In this document: piece by piece, positions 33,349 through 41,252 of the stretch
How the letters are laid out: every line of letters starts with the position of its first letter
Position numbering within the stretch: the first letter of the stretch is position 1
NCBI GenBank assembly: GCA_024635795.1
Contig: JAGXIH010000011.1
Coordinates: 1 to 64,000, forward strand
From: Salegentibacter sp.
GTDB taxonomy: Bacteria > Bacteroidota > Bacteroidia > Flavobacteriales > Flavobacteriaceae
DNA length: 64,000 nt
Direction: 5' to 3'
Notes under the pieces: model-generated
The model's database searches: none
Told to the model about the DNA's origin: nothing
Seen by the model: the letters and a program-made list of their open reading frames with translations, nothing else
Made by a program: the position numbers and the translations under genes

Positions 33349-33373
33349 ATTAGATTAGGTTACATCTGTTAAC

Positions 33374-33410
33374 AAACCACGTGCTTTTATAAGTACGTGG
33401 TTTTTGTTTT
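33374..33410 (+). terminator. Rho-independent terminator after glnN
   Basis: AAACCACGTGC-ttttataa-GTACGTGGTTTTTGTTTT. Confidence 0.8.
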
Positions 33411-33786
33411 AACACATGTCGGAATTCCCTTAAGGGGTTTTTCCCCTTTTGGTACTTAAGAAATTTTTAACATCTGTTTTCGGCCCTTGCTACGCTTAAG
33501 ATTTTGTTAAAATATTGAGTTTTCCATAATGTGTTTCATCGAAAAATTTCAACACCATTGATTTTGAGGTAAATATGTTTATATATTAGCTGTGAAGTTA
33601 ATCGGAAACCCTACCTTAAGATAACTTCAAGCCCTCCAATAATCAAATTCATTACCTACTATTTTTATTTTTCGCCCCCCCTACTTAGTTATACATGACG
33701 ATAACATCATGTTTTAAAAAGACTCATTTGGCCAAGTGATATATTTATTAACCATTTAATATTAACCATTTAAATATTTTATTATT

Positions 33787-35271
33787 ATGAAAAAAGTGAT
33801 TTTAAGCGCTGCGGCGCTAATGATTGGGACAATTGGGTTTGCCCAGGTAAGCGGGGCACCAGAAGCTCAATCTCAAACTACTGTTCCTAATAACAGTGCA
33901 AATGCCGATGCCAATAAAGGTAAATCGGAACAATTTGGTGACGATCACCGGGTAAGGGTTAGACAGGCAGGAACCAAACAATCGGTTTACACCTATCAGG
34001 CCAATGGAGTTGGTACAATAGGAGGAAACAGGGCTGAGGTACTTCAATCCGGGGATATTAATACGAATAGTGGTCGATTAAATGAGGCAGATGTATTACA
34101 GACCGGTGATGAAAACCTATCGCTCACCATTCAGGAAGGCGATAGAAACAATGCTATTACCAGACAGGGGCAAACTGATGATGCAAGTGCACGTAACCAA
34201 GCCTTTATCAGACAGGGTAACAATGGTAATGCAGAGGATAACTATGCGGCTATTGACCAGGATGGAAACGACAACCAGGCTATGACTCGTCAAACCTATG
34301 ATAATAATGACGCATATACTGATCAGGATGGGAACAATTTAAGATCGAGAATTACCCAAATAGCCTCTCCAAATGGATCCGAAGGACATTGGGCTCTTGT
34401 TGACCAACAAGGAGATGATAATGAATCCTGGGTGCTACAGGAAGGTGATGGTGCCAGAAACTATGCTCATACAGCTCAGGATGGTTTAAGCAACTATGCA
34501 GACCAATATCAAACTACTCTGGCAACATCAGGAGATGCAAACCGAGCTCAGATTGCACAGGGTCAAGATCCATTATGGAGTGTAGTAGGATTTAACAGTG
34601 AAATGGTTGATTTGAAAAATGATACCTATGCTGTGGATGGTGTACAAGGTACAGGGCCTTTATACTCAGAAGGTGCACAGGCTTTCCAAAAACAGGATGG
34701 AGATGATAACCAGGCCAATATAGGTCAATACGGTATATTAGCAGGCAATCCGCTAGCTGGTAACTATGCTGAGCAAGATCAATTAGGTGATGACAATAAC
34801 TCTTTCCTTATACAAAATCTTTTTGGAAATACTGCTGGAGGTGGCAATAAGGCTCAACAGCTCCAGATTGGAGATGATAACAATGCAGGTATAGTGCAAA
34901 GTGGTACTGGTCATAAAGCCAAACAATATCAACTTGGTGATGACAACTTAGCGTTAACTTCTCAAAAAGGAAATGGTAATAAAGCATTTACCTTTCAATA
35001 TGGAGATGATAACTGGGTAAGTACTGCTCAAAGAGGTCATGACAACAAGATAGTTGTTTCTCAATATGATGGCCAAAGTTATATTGCCGAGCAAAATCTT
35101 TATCAACATCCACAAGCAGGTGGTAATCAGATTGATGTTGTTCAAACCGACGGAAGTCAGTCAATTAATGATTGGTTAGCTGAGGAATGTGAAATCGATA
35201 TGATGACTCCACAAGAGTGGACTAATTTTAGAAGTCCATCTACTCCAGATATTTGTCAGGATTGCAATTAA
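33787..35271 (+). CDS. Curlin-repeat amyloid protein (CsgA/B-like, large)
   Basis: Signal peptide; many imperfect repeats of the QxGxxNxA(x)3Q type with recurrent GDDN turns; next to csgEFG-like genes. Confidence 0.9.
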   Translation: MKKVILSAAALMIGTIGFAQVSGAPEAQSQTTVPNNSANADANKGKSEQFGDDHRVRVRQAGTKQSVYTYQANGVGTIGGNRAEVLQSGDINTNSGRLNEADVLQTGDENLSLTIQEGDRNNAITRQGQTDDASARNQAFIRQGNNGNAEDNYAAIDQDGNDNQAMTRQTYDNNDAYTDQDGNNLRSRITQIASPNGSEGHWALVDQQGDDNESWVLQEGDGARNYAHTAQDGLSNYADQYQTTLATSGDANRAQIAQGQDPLWSVVGFNSEMVDLKNDTYAVDGVQGTGPLYSEGAQAFQKQDGDDNQANIGQYGILAGNPLAGNYAEQDQLGDDNNSFLIQNLFGNTAGGGNKAQQLQIGDDNNAGIVQSGTGHKAKQYQLGDDNLALTSQKGNGNKAFTFQYGDDNWVSTAQRGHDNKIVVSQYDGQSYIAEQNLYQHPQAGGNQIDVVQTDGSQSINDWLAEECEIDMMTPQEWTNFRSPSTPDICQDCN

Positions 35272-35339
35272 TTTAAGGTTAATAATCCAATTAGGGGAGA
35301 GTAATTGCAATTTCTCTCCCCTTTTTTAAATATAAAGCT

Positions 35340-35861
35340 ATGAAAGTTTTAAATTACATTTTATTGGGTGGTCTTATTTTATTTTCCTTTCAAACTCAGG
35401 CTCAAACATATATAGAAACTACCGATAATGAATTGATTGAGGAAGGAAGTGAACTTACCCCTGTAAGCTTATCCTATTTAGGGATTTTTACAGGTTTAAA
35501 CCCCCGTGTTCAGGAGATAACCGGCAACTCGGTTTCCCTGGAACAAATAGGGGAGATGAATAAAGTAAATATTATGACCAGAACAGAAGCCAGTGAAATT
35601 AATGTTCGTCAGGAGGGTAATAATAACAACACCAGCTTGAAATATATTGCAAAAACTGCTTATACAGATGTTTTTCAGTTAGGGGATTATAATACGATAA
35701 AAGATTTTGTGAATGCTCCAACTGAAGAAATCTCATTAGAGCTACAGCAAACGGGGAATGATCAAATATTTGAGAGGAACGGGATAAATGAGCTTACTAA
35801 ATCGATAAGATTTAATCAAACAGAAGCCACCCCGGTTTTAATAATCAATAGTTATAATTAA
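35340..35861 (+). CDS. Short curlin-repeat protein (candidate minor subunit/nucleator)
   Basis: Signal peptide, VSLEQIGEMNKVNIMTRTEASEINVRQEGNNNNTSLKYI...DVFQLGDYNTIKDF...LELQQTGNDQ. Confidence 0.8.
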   Translation: MKVLNYILLGGLILFSFQTQAQTYIETTDNELIEEGSELTPVSLSYLGIFTGLNPRVQEITGNSVSLEQIGEMNKVNIMTRTEASEINVRQEGNNNNTSLKYIAKTAYTDVFQLGDYNTIKDFVNAPTEEISLELQQTGNDQIFERNGINELTKSIRFNQTEATPVLIINSYN

Positions 35862-36631
35862 TGGGTTTTAATAGAAACATAGGCCTATTTGTGATTTTCT
35901 GCTTTGCAGTTGTCTTTCAGGGAAAAAGCCAGATCTTAAATGAGGTAATAAAAGCCACTATTCAGGTTGAGGACAAAGGTGAATTTTTAAATTTTAAGGC
36001 CGTCGCAGAAAATCTGAATTCCGCAGATCGCAATCTGGAATATGAATTTATAGTAATAAAAAAGGATGCCCGGGGAAATAGTGCCAGAACGAGCCAGGGA
36101 GATAGATTCTTTATACAAGCTCATGAAAAGATCATTTTATCATCCACACAAATTAACAGAGCCTTAAATGGTAGTATTATAGTGATGCATCTTATTTATG
36201 ATGAAGATCGCAACCCGATAGGTCGCGATAAGCTTGAATTTGAATTTACCGAAGAGGGTATAAAAGAAGTTTCAGAAAAAAAAGTAGTGAAAATAAGTAC
36301 TGATGAGGCAAAACCCCAGGATGGATTTATTATAAATGGGTTAGTAATTGAGAATACTATAACCAAAGCAGGAAGGGATTTCTATCGCTTCTTTTACTCT
36401 GATTATTATAACAAACAAATTACAACGCCATTTAATATTAAAATTGAGGAAGATCCAGGAAGAGGGAGAATGACCAGAATCTCGGTATATGTGCAGGATG
36501 AGTTAGTTATGAGGTTTTTTGCACAACCTCGCCGGGATTATTTAAAACAGATGGCAAAAATAGCCATGCAACGCAGTATAAATCAACTTCGAAAATTAGA
36601 ACAACAAACCACCACTGTAAAACATTATTAA
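35861..36631 (+). CDS. CsgE-domain protein with N-terminal CsgH-like domain
   Basis: C-terminal half GFIINGLVIENTITKAGRDFYRFFYSDYYNK...RISVYVQDELVMRFFAQPRRDYLKQMA aligns with CsgE; N-terminal half has the CsgH-like pattern (EYEFIVIKKDARGNSARTSQGDRFFIQAHEKIILSSTQIN). Confidence 0.88.
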   Translation: MGFNRNIGLFVIFCFAVVFQGKSQILNEVIKATIQVEDKGEFLNFKAVAENLNSADRNLEYEFIVIKKDARGNSARTSQGDRFFIQAHEKIILSSTQINRALNGSIIVMHLIYDEDRNPIGRDKLEFEFTEEGIKEVSEKKVVKISTDEAKPQDGFIINGLVIENTITKAGRDFYRFFYSDYYNKQITTPFNIKIEEDPGRGRMTRISVYVQDELVMRFFAQPRRDYLKQMAKIAMQRSINQLRKLEQQTTTVKHY

Positions 36632-37039
36632 ATGAAAAAGCTAGTCTTATTGATTGTTTTAGGACTTTTTGCCGGTCCATTAACCGCTCAGCAGTTAACA
36701 TACACTCCTCTTAATCCCGCATTTGGGGGAAACCCTTATAATTACTCGTGGATGTTGAGTTCGGCAACTGCACAAAACCAGCATAAAGCGCCGGTTGATC
36801 CAAGGGAGGAGACGTCAGAATTAGACCGCCTGAATGAAAATATAAACCGGCAACTTCTTAGCCAGATCTCTCGTTCCCTTTTATTTGAACAGTTGGAAGG
36901 TTTTGATTTCAATGAAGAAGGAACTTTTACTTACGGGACCTTAAATATGGAAATTTACAGGAGTCTGGAGGGGATAGTTATTAATATCCTTGATACTTCT
37001 ACCGGAGAGGAAACCCAAATAATAATCCCATATACATAA
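36632..37039 (+). CDS. csgF: CsgF-family curli assembly protein
   Basis: QQLTYTPLNPAFGGNPYNYSWMLSSATAQNQHK is a strong match to the CsgF N-terminal motif. Confidence 0.93.
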   Translation: MKKLVLLIVLGLFAGPLTAQQLTYTPLNPAFGGNPYNYSWMLSSATAQNQHKAPVDPREETSELDRLNENINRQLLSQISRSLLFEQLEGFDFNEEGTFTYGTLNMEIYRSLEGIVINILDTSTGEETQIIIPYT

Positions 37040-37059
37040 TACTTAAATCCCCCCACGTT

Positions 37060-38442
37060 ATGTTTAAAATTCTTAAATTATGCTGCGCCATAATTGTCCT
37101 ATGGTCATTTAGTTCCTGCGCTGCTTATTTCAATCAGCCATTCCAAAAAAGTTCATCCCGAACAGGCGAATTAACAACCAATAGTAAACCCTTATTAAAT
37201 TTACCGCCGGCAGTTGACCCGGTAGAAGTAGCTGTTTATAACTTTAGTGATCAAACCGGTCAATACAAAGCAGTTGAAAATGGTTCTACATTTAGTACTG
37301 CTGTAACTCAGGGTGGAACCACCATTTTAATAAAAGCCTTAGAAGACTCCGGTTGGTTCATACCTATAGAAAGGGAAAACCTTAGTAACCTATCTACCGA
37401 GAGAAATATAATTCGAAATACAAAACAGGAATATATTAAGAACCTGAATCCTAATGAACCTCCATTACCGGCATTACTTTATGCAGGATTAATTTTAGAA
37501 GGAGGGATTATCTCTTATGATACCAATATTATAACCGGAGGCATTGGAGCCCGTTATTTTGGGGTGGGTGGCTCTGCCAAATACAGGCAGGATAGAATTA
37601 CTGTTTATCTAAGGGCTGTCTCAACCAGTAGTGGTGAAATTTTAAAAACAGTGTATGTGTCAAAAACCATACTCTCACAGGCATTAGACGGAAATATTTT
37701 CCGCTTTGTTAAATTCCAAAGACTTTTGGAGGCCGAAACCGGTATTACGCATAACGAACCGGTACAGATGGCTATTCAGGATGCTGTAGAAAAGGCTGTT
37801 CATGATCTTATAGTAGAAGGGGTGCAGGATGGGCTGTGGTACGCGCGGGGAGGAGATGAAGTTAATCATAATTTGGTAACTACTTATTTAAAAAATAAAG
37901 AGGAGGATGATAATACCGAACTCTATGAGAGGTTGCTGATAGATCGACCCTACAAGAATAATCTCAGTTTATCAGGCGGGATAGGATTAATAGATGGAGA
38001 TTATCAAAAAAAGAATCCTGGAGTTTTGGCCAGGTTAGAATATCAGCATGATATTTTTCCTCATCTAAGTTTAGGTGCCTCAATCAATTATTTTCAGCTG
38101 GATAATGGGAATGCCTTTAAAAATGACTTCGGAAGTTTTGATCTTAATGCCCAATTAAATTTGCTTCCCAATGATGATCTTGCACCTTATATCTATGCAG
38201 GGTCTGGTTATCTTAGAGCTTTAGATAGTTTTAGTAATGAAAATAATATCGAAGATTCTAAATCCGATTTTCTGAAAATGCAATACGGTGCAGGATTACG
38301 TTACTTATTATCACCAAGGATAGGTATTAAAATTTTTGGAGAACATCATCTGCTTTTTAGTGATAAACTGGATTATATAGAACAGGGTAAAAGAGATGAT
38401 CACTACTATAATTTCGGAATAGGCATTAATTTTTATTACTAA
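37060..38442 (+). CDS. csgG: CsgG-family curli secretion lipoprotein with extra C-terminal beta-barrel-like domain
   Basis: VEVAVYNFSDQTGQYKAVENGSTFSTAVTQGGTTILIKALEDSGWFIPIERENLSNLSTERNIIR, GGIGARYFGVGGSAKYRQDRITVYLRAVSTSSGEILKTVYVSKTILS; residues after about 300 look like an OMP barrel (SLSGGIGLIDGDY...YYNFGIGINFYY). Confidence 0.93.
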   Translation: MFKILKLCCAIIVLWSFSSCAAYFNQPFQKSSSRTGELTTNSKPLLNLPPAVDPVEVAVYNFSDQTGQYKAVENGSTFSTAVTQGGTTILIKALEDSGWFIPIERENLSNLSTERNIIRNTKQEYIKNLNPNEPPLPALLYAGLILEGGIISYDTNIITGGIGARYFGVGGSAKYRQDRITVYLRAVSTSSGEILKTVYVSKTILSQALDGNIFRFVKFQRLLEAETGITHNEPVQMAIQDAVEKAVHDLIVEGVQDGLWYARGGDEVNHNLVTTYLKNKEEDDNTELYERLLIDRPYKNNLSLSGGIGLIDGDYQKKNPGVLARLEYQHDIFPHLSLGASINYFQLDNGNAFKNDFGSFDLNAQLNLLPNDDLAPYIYAGSGYLRALDSFSNENNIEDSKSDFLKMQYGAGLRYLLSPRIGIKIFGEHHLLFSDKLDYIEQGKRDDHYYNFGIGINFYY

Positions 38443-38462
38443 CCCATCAAATATTATCGAAA

Positions 38463-39959
38463 ATGAAAACCATATATAAACTATTACTGCTTTCGGTTTT
38501 AGGAATCCTTCAGGCCTGTTCCGAAGACACTATTGGAGAAGAATTAACAGGATCGGTTACCGGGCTGGTAATTTCTAAATCTACCGGAGAGCCTATTGAG
38601 GAAGTAGAAATTACTACATCTCCGGCATCTACAACTGTTTTTACCGATGAAAATGGAGAATTTCTCCTGGAAAATATTTTGGTGAATTCTTATTCGGTTA
38701 AAGCGGAAGCAGACGGTTACGTCACCAGTTTTAAAGGGGTAGCTGTAACCACAGGGGCTACTTCTAATGTAGTAATTGAAATGGCTGAAGGGACCGGGAA
38801 TAACAGGGCGCCCAATCCACCAGAATTGATTACCCCTGAAGATAATGCTGAAGGACAATCTCTTGAATTAGATTTAATCTGGGAGGCCAGTGATCCTGAT
38901 GCCGATACTTTAACCTATGAATTAGAAATTCGTAATAATCGGAATGACGAAATTCTGAAATACGACAGTATCCAGGATACTATCTTTAGGCTGGAAGGAC
39001 TAAATTATGGGTATAAATATTTCTGGCAGGTCAAAGTAAGTGATAGCATTAACAATCCTGTAATGAGTGAGGTTAAATCCTTTACTACATTAGAACATCC
39101 TGGGTCCAGAATTTTCTATACAAAATCGATTAATGGGAACAATGTAATCTTTGCCATGGATTCTAATGAAAACGAATATCAACTTACTTCTTCTGATGTT
39201 AATAGTTTTAGACCGAGAAAAAATCTCCGGACAAACAAAATTGCATATTTAAAGACCGAAGCAAATCAAATCCACCTTTACACGATGAACCTGGGCGGTT
39301 CACAGCAAACACGCGTCACCGGTAATATTCCGGTCAATGGTTTTAATCTCGGGCAAATAGATTTTTCATGGGCTGATGATGGAGCAAGTTTGGTTTATCC
39401 CAATTTCACAAAACTTTATAAAGTAAACGTCAATGGAAATGATACTAAATTAATTTATCAGGAACCGAAAGGAAAATTTATAACTGAAGTGGACGTAAGC
39501 GAAAAAAACGAAAATATGGCACTGTTGGTAAATAATGCCAGTGGCTATGAAGCCGAAATATATATAATTGACCATCTAGGGAACAAGCTCAATACTGTTT
39601 TATCAAATGTAAATGGGGCTTTAGGAGGTTTGGATCTTTCTGTAGAAAATAAATTCTTATTGTTTACCAGAGATATTTCTGAATATGAAAGTTCCGACTA
39701 CAGAAGATTAGATTCTCATATTTTCATTTATAATTTAGAGACCTCAGCAGTGCAGGATTACAGTAGGGGGAAGCTGGAAGGTACTAATGACCTTGATCCG
39801 CGGTTCTCACCTAATGAAGCTGAAATTATCTTTGTCAATACTTCCAACGATGGGGTGTCTCAAAAAAATATATATACGGCCTATTTAGAAGATCAGGAGT
39901 CTGATGGATCTCATAGAATAGAGCTGATCGAAGGCGCGAAAATGCCGGATTGGGAATAA
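38463..39959 (+). CDS. Lipoprotein with carboxypeptidase-regulatory-like, fibronectin-like and TolB/WD40-like propeller regions
   Basis: Lipobox LQACSED; GSVTGLVISKSTGEPIEEVEITTSPASTTVFTDENGEFLLENI; PNPPELITPEDNAEGQSLELDLIWEASDPDADTLTYELEI; propeller-like DLDPRFSPNEAEIIFVN. Confidence 0.8.
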   Translation: MKTIYKLLLLSVLGILQACSEDTIGEELTGSVTGLVISKSTGEPIEEVEITTSPASTTVFTDENGEFLLENILVNSYSVKAEADGYVTSFKGVAVTTGATSNVVIEMAEGTGNNRAPNPPELITPEDNAEGQSLELDLIWEASDPDADTLTYELEIRNNRNDEILKYDSIQDTIFRLEGLNYGYKYFWQVKVSDSINNPVMSEVKSFTTLEHPGSRIFYTKSINGNNVIFAMDSNENEYQLTSSDVNSFRPRKNLRTNKIAYLKTEANQIHLYTMNLGGSQQTRVTGNIPVNGFNLGQIDFSWADDGASLVYPNFTKLYKVNVNGNDTKLIYQEPKGKFITEVDVSEKNENMALLVNNASGYEAEIYIIDHLGNKLNTVLSNVNGALGGLDLSVENKFLLFTRDISEYESSDYRRLDSHIFIYNLETSAVQDYSRGKLEGTNDLDPRFSPNEAEIIFVNTSNDGVSQKNIYTAYLEDQESDGSHRIELIEGAKMPDWE

Positions 39960-40070
39960 GGAAAAATTAATGTGGGGAGCGGTAGTTTCATTTATGGGCT
40001 GCCGCTTTTTTATTTTAATTAGTTTTTTGGGAGGTTCAAACTGTTTATCTTTGAACCCCACAACACAATT

Positions 40071-41252
40071 ATGAGCCAGGAAATCAGTAAACGTTACGCC
40101 CAAAGAGGTGTGTCGGCAGGAAAAGAAGATGTACACAACGCGATAAAGAATGTAGATAAAGGATTGTTTCCGCAGGCCTTTTGCAAAATAGTTCCCGATT
40201 ACCTTACCGGAGATAAGGATTACTGCCTCATTATGCACGCCGATGGTGCCGGCACAAAATCTTCGCTCGCCTATATGTACTGGAAGGAAACCGGAGATCT
40301 TTCGGTTTGGAAAGGTATCGCCCAGGATGCGCTTATCATGAATATTGATGATTTGCTTTGCGTTGGTGCTACCGATAATATTTTGCTTTCCTCAACTATT
40401 GGGAGGAATAAGAACCTGGTGCCGGGAGAAGTGATTTCCGCAATTATCAACGGTACCGAAGAACTACTTGAAGACCTTAAGAAATTTGGCGTGGATATTC
40501 ATTCCACCGGCGGCGAAACCGCTGATGTTGGTGATCTGGTACGAACCATTATCGTGGATTCTACAGTTACTGCCCGAATGAAACGCAGCGAGGTAATCGA
40601 TAATGCCAATATTAAAGCCGGAAATGTGATTGTTGGCCTCTCTTCTTTTGGACGGGCAACTTACGAAAAGGAGTATAACGGCGGAATGGGTAGCAACGGC
40701 TTGACCTCAGCACGACACGATGTGTTTTCAAAGATTTTAGCTGAAAAATATCCTGAAAGTTTTGATAACGGGATTCCTGAAGATTTGATCTATTCCGGAT
40801 CAAAGAAATTGACTGATAAAGTTGAAAATTCACCGCTTGATGCCGGGAAACTGGTGCTTTCTCCAACCCGAACCTATGCTCCGATAATAAAAAAGATGCT
40901 GTCAAAATTCAGCAATAAGGAAATTCACGGGATGGTGCATTGCAGTGGTGGCGCACAAACCAAGATCCTTCATTTTGTTGAAAACCTGTATATTATTAAA
41001 GATAACCTCTTTGAAGTGCCGCCGTTGTTTAAGCTTATTCAGCAGGAAAGCAAAACCGACTGGAAAGAGATGTACCAGGTGTTCAATATGGGGCACAGGA
41101 TGGAGCTGTATGTGGATGAAAATATCGCTTCAGAGATCATCGAAATTTCAAAATCCTTCAAAATAGACGCTCAGATTGTTGGAAGGGTTGAAGCTTCCGA
41201 AGAAAAGAAACTCAGTATTAACAGTGAGTTTGGGGAGTTTGAGTATAAATAG
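40071..41252 (+). CDS. purM: Phosphoribosylformylglycinamidine cyclo-ligase (AIR synthase)
   Basis: AIRS-like motifs: HADGAGTKSSLAYMYWKETGDLSVWKGIAQDALIMNIDDLLCVGA, HSTGGETADVGDLVRT, MVHCSGGAQTKILHF. Confidence 0.85.
   Translation: MSQEISKRYAQRGVSAGKEDVHNAIKNVDKGLFPQAFCKIVPDYLTGDKDYCLIMHADGAGTKSSLAYMYWKETGDLSVWKGIAQDALIMNIDDLLCVGATDNILLSSTIGRNKNLVPGEVISAIINGTEELLEDLKKFGVDIHSTGGETADVGDLVRTIIVDSTVTARMKRSEVIDNANIKAGNVIVGLSSFGRATYEKEYNGGMGSNGLTSARHDVFSKILAEKYPESFDNGIPEDLIYSGSKKLTDKVENSPLDAGKLVLSPTRTYAPIIKKMLSKFSNKEIHGMVHCSGGAQTKILHFVENLYIIKDNLFEVPPLFKLIQQESKTDWKEMYQVFNMGHRMELYVDENIASEIIEISKSFKIDAQIVGRVEASEEKKLSINSEFGEFEYK

Follow-up and report, generated by a model that had tools for sequence, protein, structure and literature searches.

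The six consecutive plus-strand genes at positions 33787-39959 of the 64,000-nucleotide stretch of Salegentibacter sp. DNA analysed here (the window) constitute a complete Bacteroidota-type curli cassette, in which the supposedly absent chaperone of the CsgC/CsgH type appears, from profile searches and a predicted fold, to be present as an N-terminal domain fused to CsgE. The largest related genus is almost surely Flavobacterium, and in 36 of its species the corresponding halves of this gene lie in different reading frames, the junction between them being predicted to be a site of programmed frameshifting or transcriptional slippage. Judged by its gene content, which includes a curlin-repeat subunit, a CsgG pore, CsgE and CsgF, all the components by which curli and type VIII secretion are recognized, the cassette is a true curli system of variant form. 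The genes and signals follow one another in this order:

33374-33403, + strand, terminator-like hairpin at the left edge of the cassette, the terminator of the upstream glutamine synthetase III gene
33787-35271, + strand, gene 1, large curlin of 494 aa with Pfam curlin repeats and a signal peptide
35293-35322, + strand, terminator-like hairpin between genes 1 and 2, AGGGGAGAG..CTCTCCCCT followed by a U run
35340-35861, + strand, gene 2, small curlin-like protein of 173 aa with a weak curlin match
35861-36631, + strand, gene 3, putative fusion of a CsgC/CsgH-like domain with CsgE, from profiles and an AF2 fold
35939-36235, + strand, N-terminal CsgC/CsgH-like domain of gene 3 (aa 27-125)
36276-36283, + strand, A8 run in the CsgH-CsgE linker of gene 3, at the site of the frame-shifting A10 run of relatives
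36332-36616, + strand, CsgE domain of gene 3 (aa 158-252), PF10627
36632-37039, + strand, gene 4, CsgF of 135 aa, PF10614
37060-38442, + strand, gene 5, CsgG lipoprotein pore with a barrel, PF03783 and OMP_b-brl (CsgG pore, aa 40-276; long helix, 266-292; 8-strand barrel, aa 300-459, at 37957-38436)
38463-39959, + strand, gene 6, lipoprotein with CarboxypepD_reg, Fn3-like and TolB-like propeller regions
39974-40010, + strand, strong terminator-like hairpin closing the cassette

The first-pass annotation had described six consecutive same-strand genes here, and all of them were recovered at these coordinates; its assignments of curlin, CsgE, CsgF and CsgG were borne out by profile searches, in which all core components were matched. 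The outcome named there as a refutation, profile searches without any CsgE, CsgF or CsgG match, was thus not observed. The spacing between successive genes from 1 to 6 was 68, -1, 0, 20 and 20 nt. As had also been noted, no CsgD-type regulator was found among the genes neighbouring the cassette, and the region upstream of gene 1 (33349-33786) contained relaxed matches to the Bacteroidetes-type -7 promoter but no exact TAnnTTTG. Since the assembly is 61.6% complete, further csg genes may exist elsewhere in the genome.

Gene 3 carries the most unusual architecture attributed to the cassette. Its residues 158-252 matched the CsgE profile PF10627 at 67.2 bits (cut-off 25), and its residues 32-99 gave a weak match of 27.9 bits to the NCBIfam CsgH model, whose curated cut-off is 35. 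When a profile of the N-terminal domain was built from relatives and compared with the PDB, CsgC ranked first (1.1e-5) and CsgH next (0.021), and 27 of 29 members of the domain family matched NCBIfam CsgH, 16 of 29 matching CsgC. The AF2 model of gene 3, a low-confidence model (pLDDT 61) computed from an alignment of nine sequences only, placed seven strands in the N-terminal part, as in the CsgC/CsgH fold. A Foldseek comparison of this model with 350,542 PDB chains returned CsgH 2N59 first (probability 1.00, TM 0.61 by target), the CsgE structure 2NA4 being also matched with probability 1.00. The low overall confidence of this model and of that of CsgG (pLDDT 61 and 60) is due to the few sequences in their alignments. 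No cysteine was found within aa 27-125 of gene 3, neither as CxC nor as the distant pair of CsgC/CsgH, so that the domain is better described as CsgC/CsgH-like than as a canonical CsgH. A CsgC/H component, previously reported as not visible, is thus likely to have been present all along, as the N-terminal part of the CsgE protein.

The fusion was seen in Flavobacteriales only, the domain being present in 56 of the 237 Flavobacteriaceae genera sampled. A phylum-wide occurrence was rejected, as other Bacteroidota families have CsgE alone or behind LysM, some with a separate H gene, and in some of these families a stand-alone H-domain gene lies beside the curlins. It was also observed that the LysM peptidoglycan-binding domain is N-terminal to CsgE in such families (L070, L076, L086), and that two tandem CsgH-like domains precede CsgE in two genomes (L175:1414-2610 and G1047).

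The claim that two assembly components carry extra domains was confirmed for CsgE and, additionally, for CsgG. Gene 4, between them, is a CsgF (PF10614, 112.3 bits, cut-off 25.8). Gene 5 matched both the CsgG profile PF03783 (213.2 bits, cut-off 20.8) and OMP_b-brl (30.9 bits, cut-off 28.7), and its residues 40-276 could be aligned over their whole length with the solved structures of E. coli CsgG (7e-61). In the AF2 model, residues 300-459 follow a long helix and form eight predicted strands with pLDDT mostly between 70 and 90, for which Foldseek returned NspA and OmpA. The extra 8-strand barrel was present in every complete csgG among the loci sampled. PorG was rejected as an identity for this barrel, the PorG score being 31 of 130 bits; PorG of type IX secretion, OmpA and NspA share with it an 8-strand outer-membrane barrel, which in the window is fused to the end of CsgG. 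E. coli CsgG is a nonamer, and if the same holds here, by analogy each exporter would be surrounded by nine satellite barrels.

Gene 6 combines a CarboxypepD_reg domain (49.1 bits, cut-off 32.3) with a TolB-like propeller, and full-length relatives (E < 1e-128) were found in exactly 10 of 60 genomes, namely those with csgE (10/10 versus 0/50; Fisher 1.3e-11). Its mature N-terminus reads C-S-E-D-T, that is, a Cys followed at +2 to +6 by residues that are polar and acidic, and at least two acidic residues in this interval were carried by 25 of 33 gene 6 relatives versus none of 37 CsgG lipoproteins. This N-terminus resembles the surface-export signal of Bacteroidetes lipoproteins described in PMC5080379, and gene 6 is accordingly predicted to encode a surface lipoprotein, which we infer to serve as an anchor at the surface or as a nucleation factor. 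In congeners that have the cassette at this same locus (L053-L058), gene 6 is 55-60% identical and gene 3 (35861-36631) about 32%, a difference suggesting that evolution was uneven or that the front half was exchanged.

The two curlin genes differ in the strength of their matches. Gene 1 matched the PF07012 curlin repeats at 70.9 bits (cut-off 20.7) in seven significant stretches and is, on its repeats, the probable major fibre subunit. Gene 2, which scored 13.2 bits, below the Pfam cut-off, and was matched by NCBIfam CsgA at 9e-6, is a candidate minor or nucleator subunit. Gene 1 has its repeats at irregular intervals, and those of relatives are long and regular. Where congeners possess extra curlin genes, these are adjoined by a second CsgH-like gene that stands alone (L056:14453-14842 and L057:4394-4795).

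The large curlin is followed by the hairpin at 35293-35322 and its U run (z -2.7). A strong hairpin occupied the same post-curlin position, with unrelated sequences, in 18 of 22 relatives, the expectation from shuffled sequences being 0.02 of 22; at other gene ends none was found (0/22 after csgE, 0/22 after csgF and 0/21 after csgG, 0/65 together). This conserved placement suggests that the hairpin probably acts as an attenuator that lets the fibre protein outnumber the machinery. Therefore, the description of the locus as one compact operon is probably too simple, and this 'one operon' would comprise two expression tiers.

The cassette as a whole also varies in its presence. A sister genome, with a glutamine synthetase III 98% identical to that of the window, has the gene for this enzyme and a purM-like gene 140 bp apart, with no cassette between them. 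The alignment of this empty site (window 33374-40071 versus L223:1360-1501) gave 97.5% identity for the left flank and 90% for the right flank, and the left-edge hairpin at 33374-33403 is also present there. These alignments indicate that the cassette is a presence/absence unit, apparently mobile as a whole, within one genus. The nearest named genome is that of Salegentibacter sediminis, with 91-93% identity in the proteins compared.

In the window, gene 3 is fused in frame. In the 36 split species (L072, L074, L093-L111, L114, L115, L117-L128 and L153), the H and E halves occupy different frames, E always in -1, and the junction consists in all 36 of a run of exactly ten A and then a G, in one phase (S-AA AAA AAA AAG, containing A_AAA_AAG), the stop of the H frame usually falling no more than 13 nt after the run. 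The H domain flanking the run is saturated in these species, with a fourfold-site identity of 0.38 and protein identity down to 0.37; AAG makes up 11% of lysine codons, yet is found at the junction in 36 of 36; and in the new frame the G of the run is the first base of D, V, E or A codons. Taken together, the saturated flanks, the rarity of AAG and the variety of codons at the G make the nucleotides of the run themselves look selected. The E frame becomes open only 12-30 codons ahead of the E domain and in 25 of 36 offers no start codon there, and csgE was found in 17 of the 18 such genomes checked, one copy each, the genome without a match (G653) not being a split locus. CsgE would therefore depend entirely on the signal peptide of H, by way of a slip, for its passage to the periplasm. 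In the tree of H plus E, the split state requires at least two changes, one split species (L153) lying well inside another clade.

There are 6-17 copies of the A10-G motif per genome, most of them away from frame breaks. The other clear -1 break with the motif was found in dnaX, in two of the same genomes (L203, L221), where a GA10G run is followed by the tau part in the -1 frame. Antonov 2013 (PMC3711429) described a two-ORF dnaX with an A10 run and the downstream ORF in the -1 frame; the csgH-csgE junction of the relatives bears the same A10 signal, which here concerns a secretion chaperone and adaptor, not a polymerase subunit. For a stimulatory stem-loop of the dnaX type, the csgH-csgE junction gave a weak signal, downstream structure being only slightly more pronounced than in controls and inconsistent between loci; given this weak structure, transcriptional slippage and ribosomal frameshifting at the A10-G run are both possible, and the run length of 10 fits transcriptional slippage. 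In a glycosyltransferase gene of four genomes (L192, L201, L202, L207), an in-frame A10-G run lies between the two parts of the gene, where a -1 slip would hit a stop almost at once; it is possibly a further slip gene or a chance KKK motif.

It is highly likely that programmed recoding in the gene 3 family sets the ratio of free to channel-tethered chaperone: in the 36 Flavobacterium species standard reading would yield CsgH alone and a -1 slip CsgH-CsgE, the sole exportable CsgE, and the other members of the family, that of the window included, would be locked in the fused state. In relatives with in-frame genes and runs of 8-11 A, at least one of the shifted frames meets a stop within 17 nt. 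The A8 run of the window (36276-36283) would give TAG at once after a slip deleting 1 nt, and a working slip that leaks some free CsgH there is unlikely: the run is absent in S. sediminis, whose protein is 91% identical, which leaves it unsupported as a slip site, and its position at the joint may be due to chance.

It is likely that, as a whole, the locus is best explained as a mobile Bacteroidota-type curli cassette with a fused chaperone, a CsgG barrel, a dedicated lipoprotein and an attenuating hairpin. The curlins would cross the inner membrane by Sec and be kept unfolded by the CsgH-like domain, which, being tethered to the CsgE adaptor, would sit where the CsgG pore opens to the periplasm and hand the subunit in directly. 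Outside, CsgF would couple the pore to nucleation, and the satellite barrels of CsgG together with the surface lipoprotein would hold both pore and fibre fast in the outer membrane. Through the hairpin that follows gene 1, much curlin and little machinery would be made, and in the related Flavobacterium species the A10-G slip site between the halves would supply free CsgH and tethered CsgH-CsgE from one gene.

An ordinary Bacteroidetes curli operon, with an unrelated beta-sandwich linker at the N-terminus of gene 3 and with the CsgG barrel and gene 6 as incidental passengers, would agree with the sub-threshold NCBIfam CsgH score, the missing cysteines and the wide distribution of CarboxypepD_reg and small barrels in the phylum. 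This reading is quite unlikely, as profile and fold searches alike rank CsgC/CsgH first, the H domain stands alone beside curlins in other families and beside the extra curlins of two congeners, the barrel was present in all complete csgG genes sampled, and gene 6 co-occurs perfectly with csgE. Similarly, the accompaniment of the curlin-like proteins by CsgE, CsgF, CsgG and a CsgC/H-like anti-amyloid domain, together with the long regular repeats of relatives, makes it very unlikely that the system secretes a non-amyloid beta-solenoid adhesin whose curlin-like proteins form no fibres, to which the irregular spacing in gene 1 and the weakness of gene 2 might otherwise point.

For the Flavobacterium junction, homopolymers are prone to sequencing error, and the frame breaks could be read as such errors or as decaying pseudogenes rather than as recoding. 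This is extremely improbable in view of an A10-G run kept in one phase in 36 species, despite the saturation of its flanks (0.38) and an AAG share of 11% among lysine codons, and of a CsgE frame that is open and single-copy in every split genome found to have csgE. The recurrence of the signal in a second, separate lineage (L153), and of signal and frame change in dnaX of two of the same genomes, also argues for recoding.

Compared with csgBAC/csgDEFG of E. coli, the cassette shares curlin repeats, CsgE, CsgF and CsgG, and differs in lying on one strand without csgD, in the apparent CsgC-type domain on CsgE, in the CsgG barrel and extra lipoprotein, and in having a hairpin instead of two promoters. 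In the main text of Dueholm 2012 (PMC3521004), csgC was reported missing in all Bacteroidetes genera and csgD likewise, except in Spirosoma; it is also stated there that CsgD is not defining for curli outside Gammaproteobacteria, that single-operon forms exist elsewhere, and that CsgA size does not affect CsgG size. The Bacteroidetes operons of that study are of the same kind as this cassette, and its main text appears not to mention the fusion, the barrel, the lipoprotein or the frame slip. The main text of Taylor 2016 (PMC4838910) notes CsgH-like sequences in Bacteroidetes and sorts CsgC from CsgH by paired cysteines; the gene 3 domain has profile and predicted fold in common with this family (PDB 2Y2Y, 2N59) and differs in its fusion to CsgE and its lack of such a pair. 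In their main texts, the surveys PMC12822426 and PMC10192328 count CsgE, CsgG and CsgH matches. The CsgH-CsgE fusion, the CsgG barrel, gene 6 and the frame slip appear to be unmentioned in the open-licence main texts of these four papers, earlier notice is possible, and searches of the open-licence literature for CsgE frameshifting, or for curli with Flavobacterium and frameshift, returned nothing relevant. Within the searchable literature, the chaperone fusion, the CsgG barrel, gene 6, the post-curlin hairpin, the empty site and the A10-G frame break are new. The earlier view of the system as under-described consequently applies to these extra parts, and not to the one-strand layout without csgC and csgD, reported since 2012 (PMC3521004, main text).

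How an amyloid protein is kept unfolded until export is a central question in functional amyloid biology. The fusion implies, by its gene architecture, that a CsgC/CsgH chaperone would pass the client protein on to CsgE at the channel; for E. coli such a step has, to our knowledge, been proposed but not demonstrated. As new components of the curli exporter, the barrel of CsgG and the surface lipoprotein dedicated to the system are candidates across the whole phylum. Most worth following are the fusion of chaperone and adaptor and the recoded form of it in relatives, where the frame slip would make the ratio of free to tethered chaperone measurable and mutable and, if true, would be a further case among the few cellular genes of bacteria that are known to be recoded in this way.
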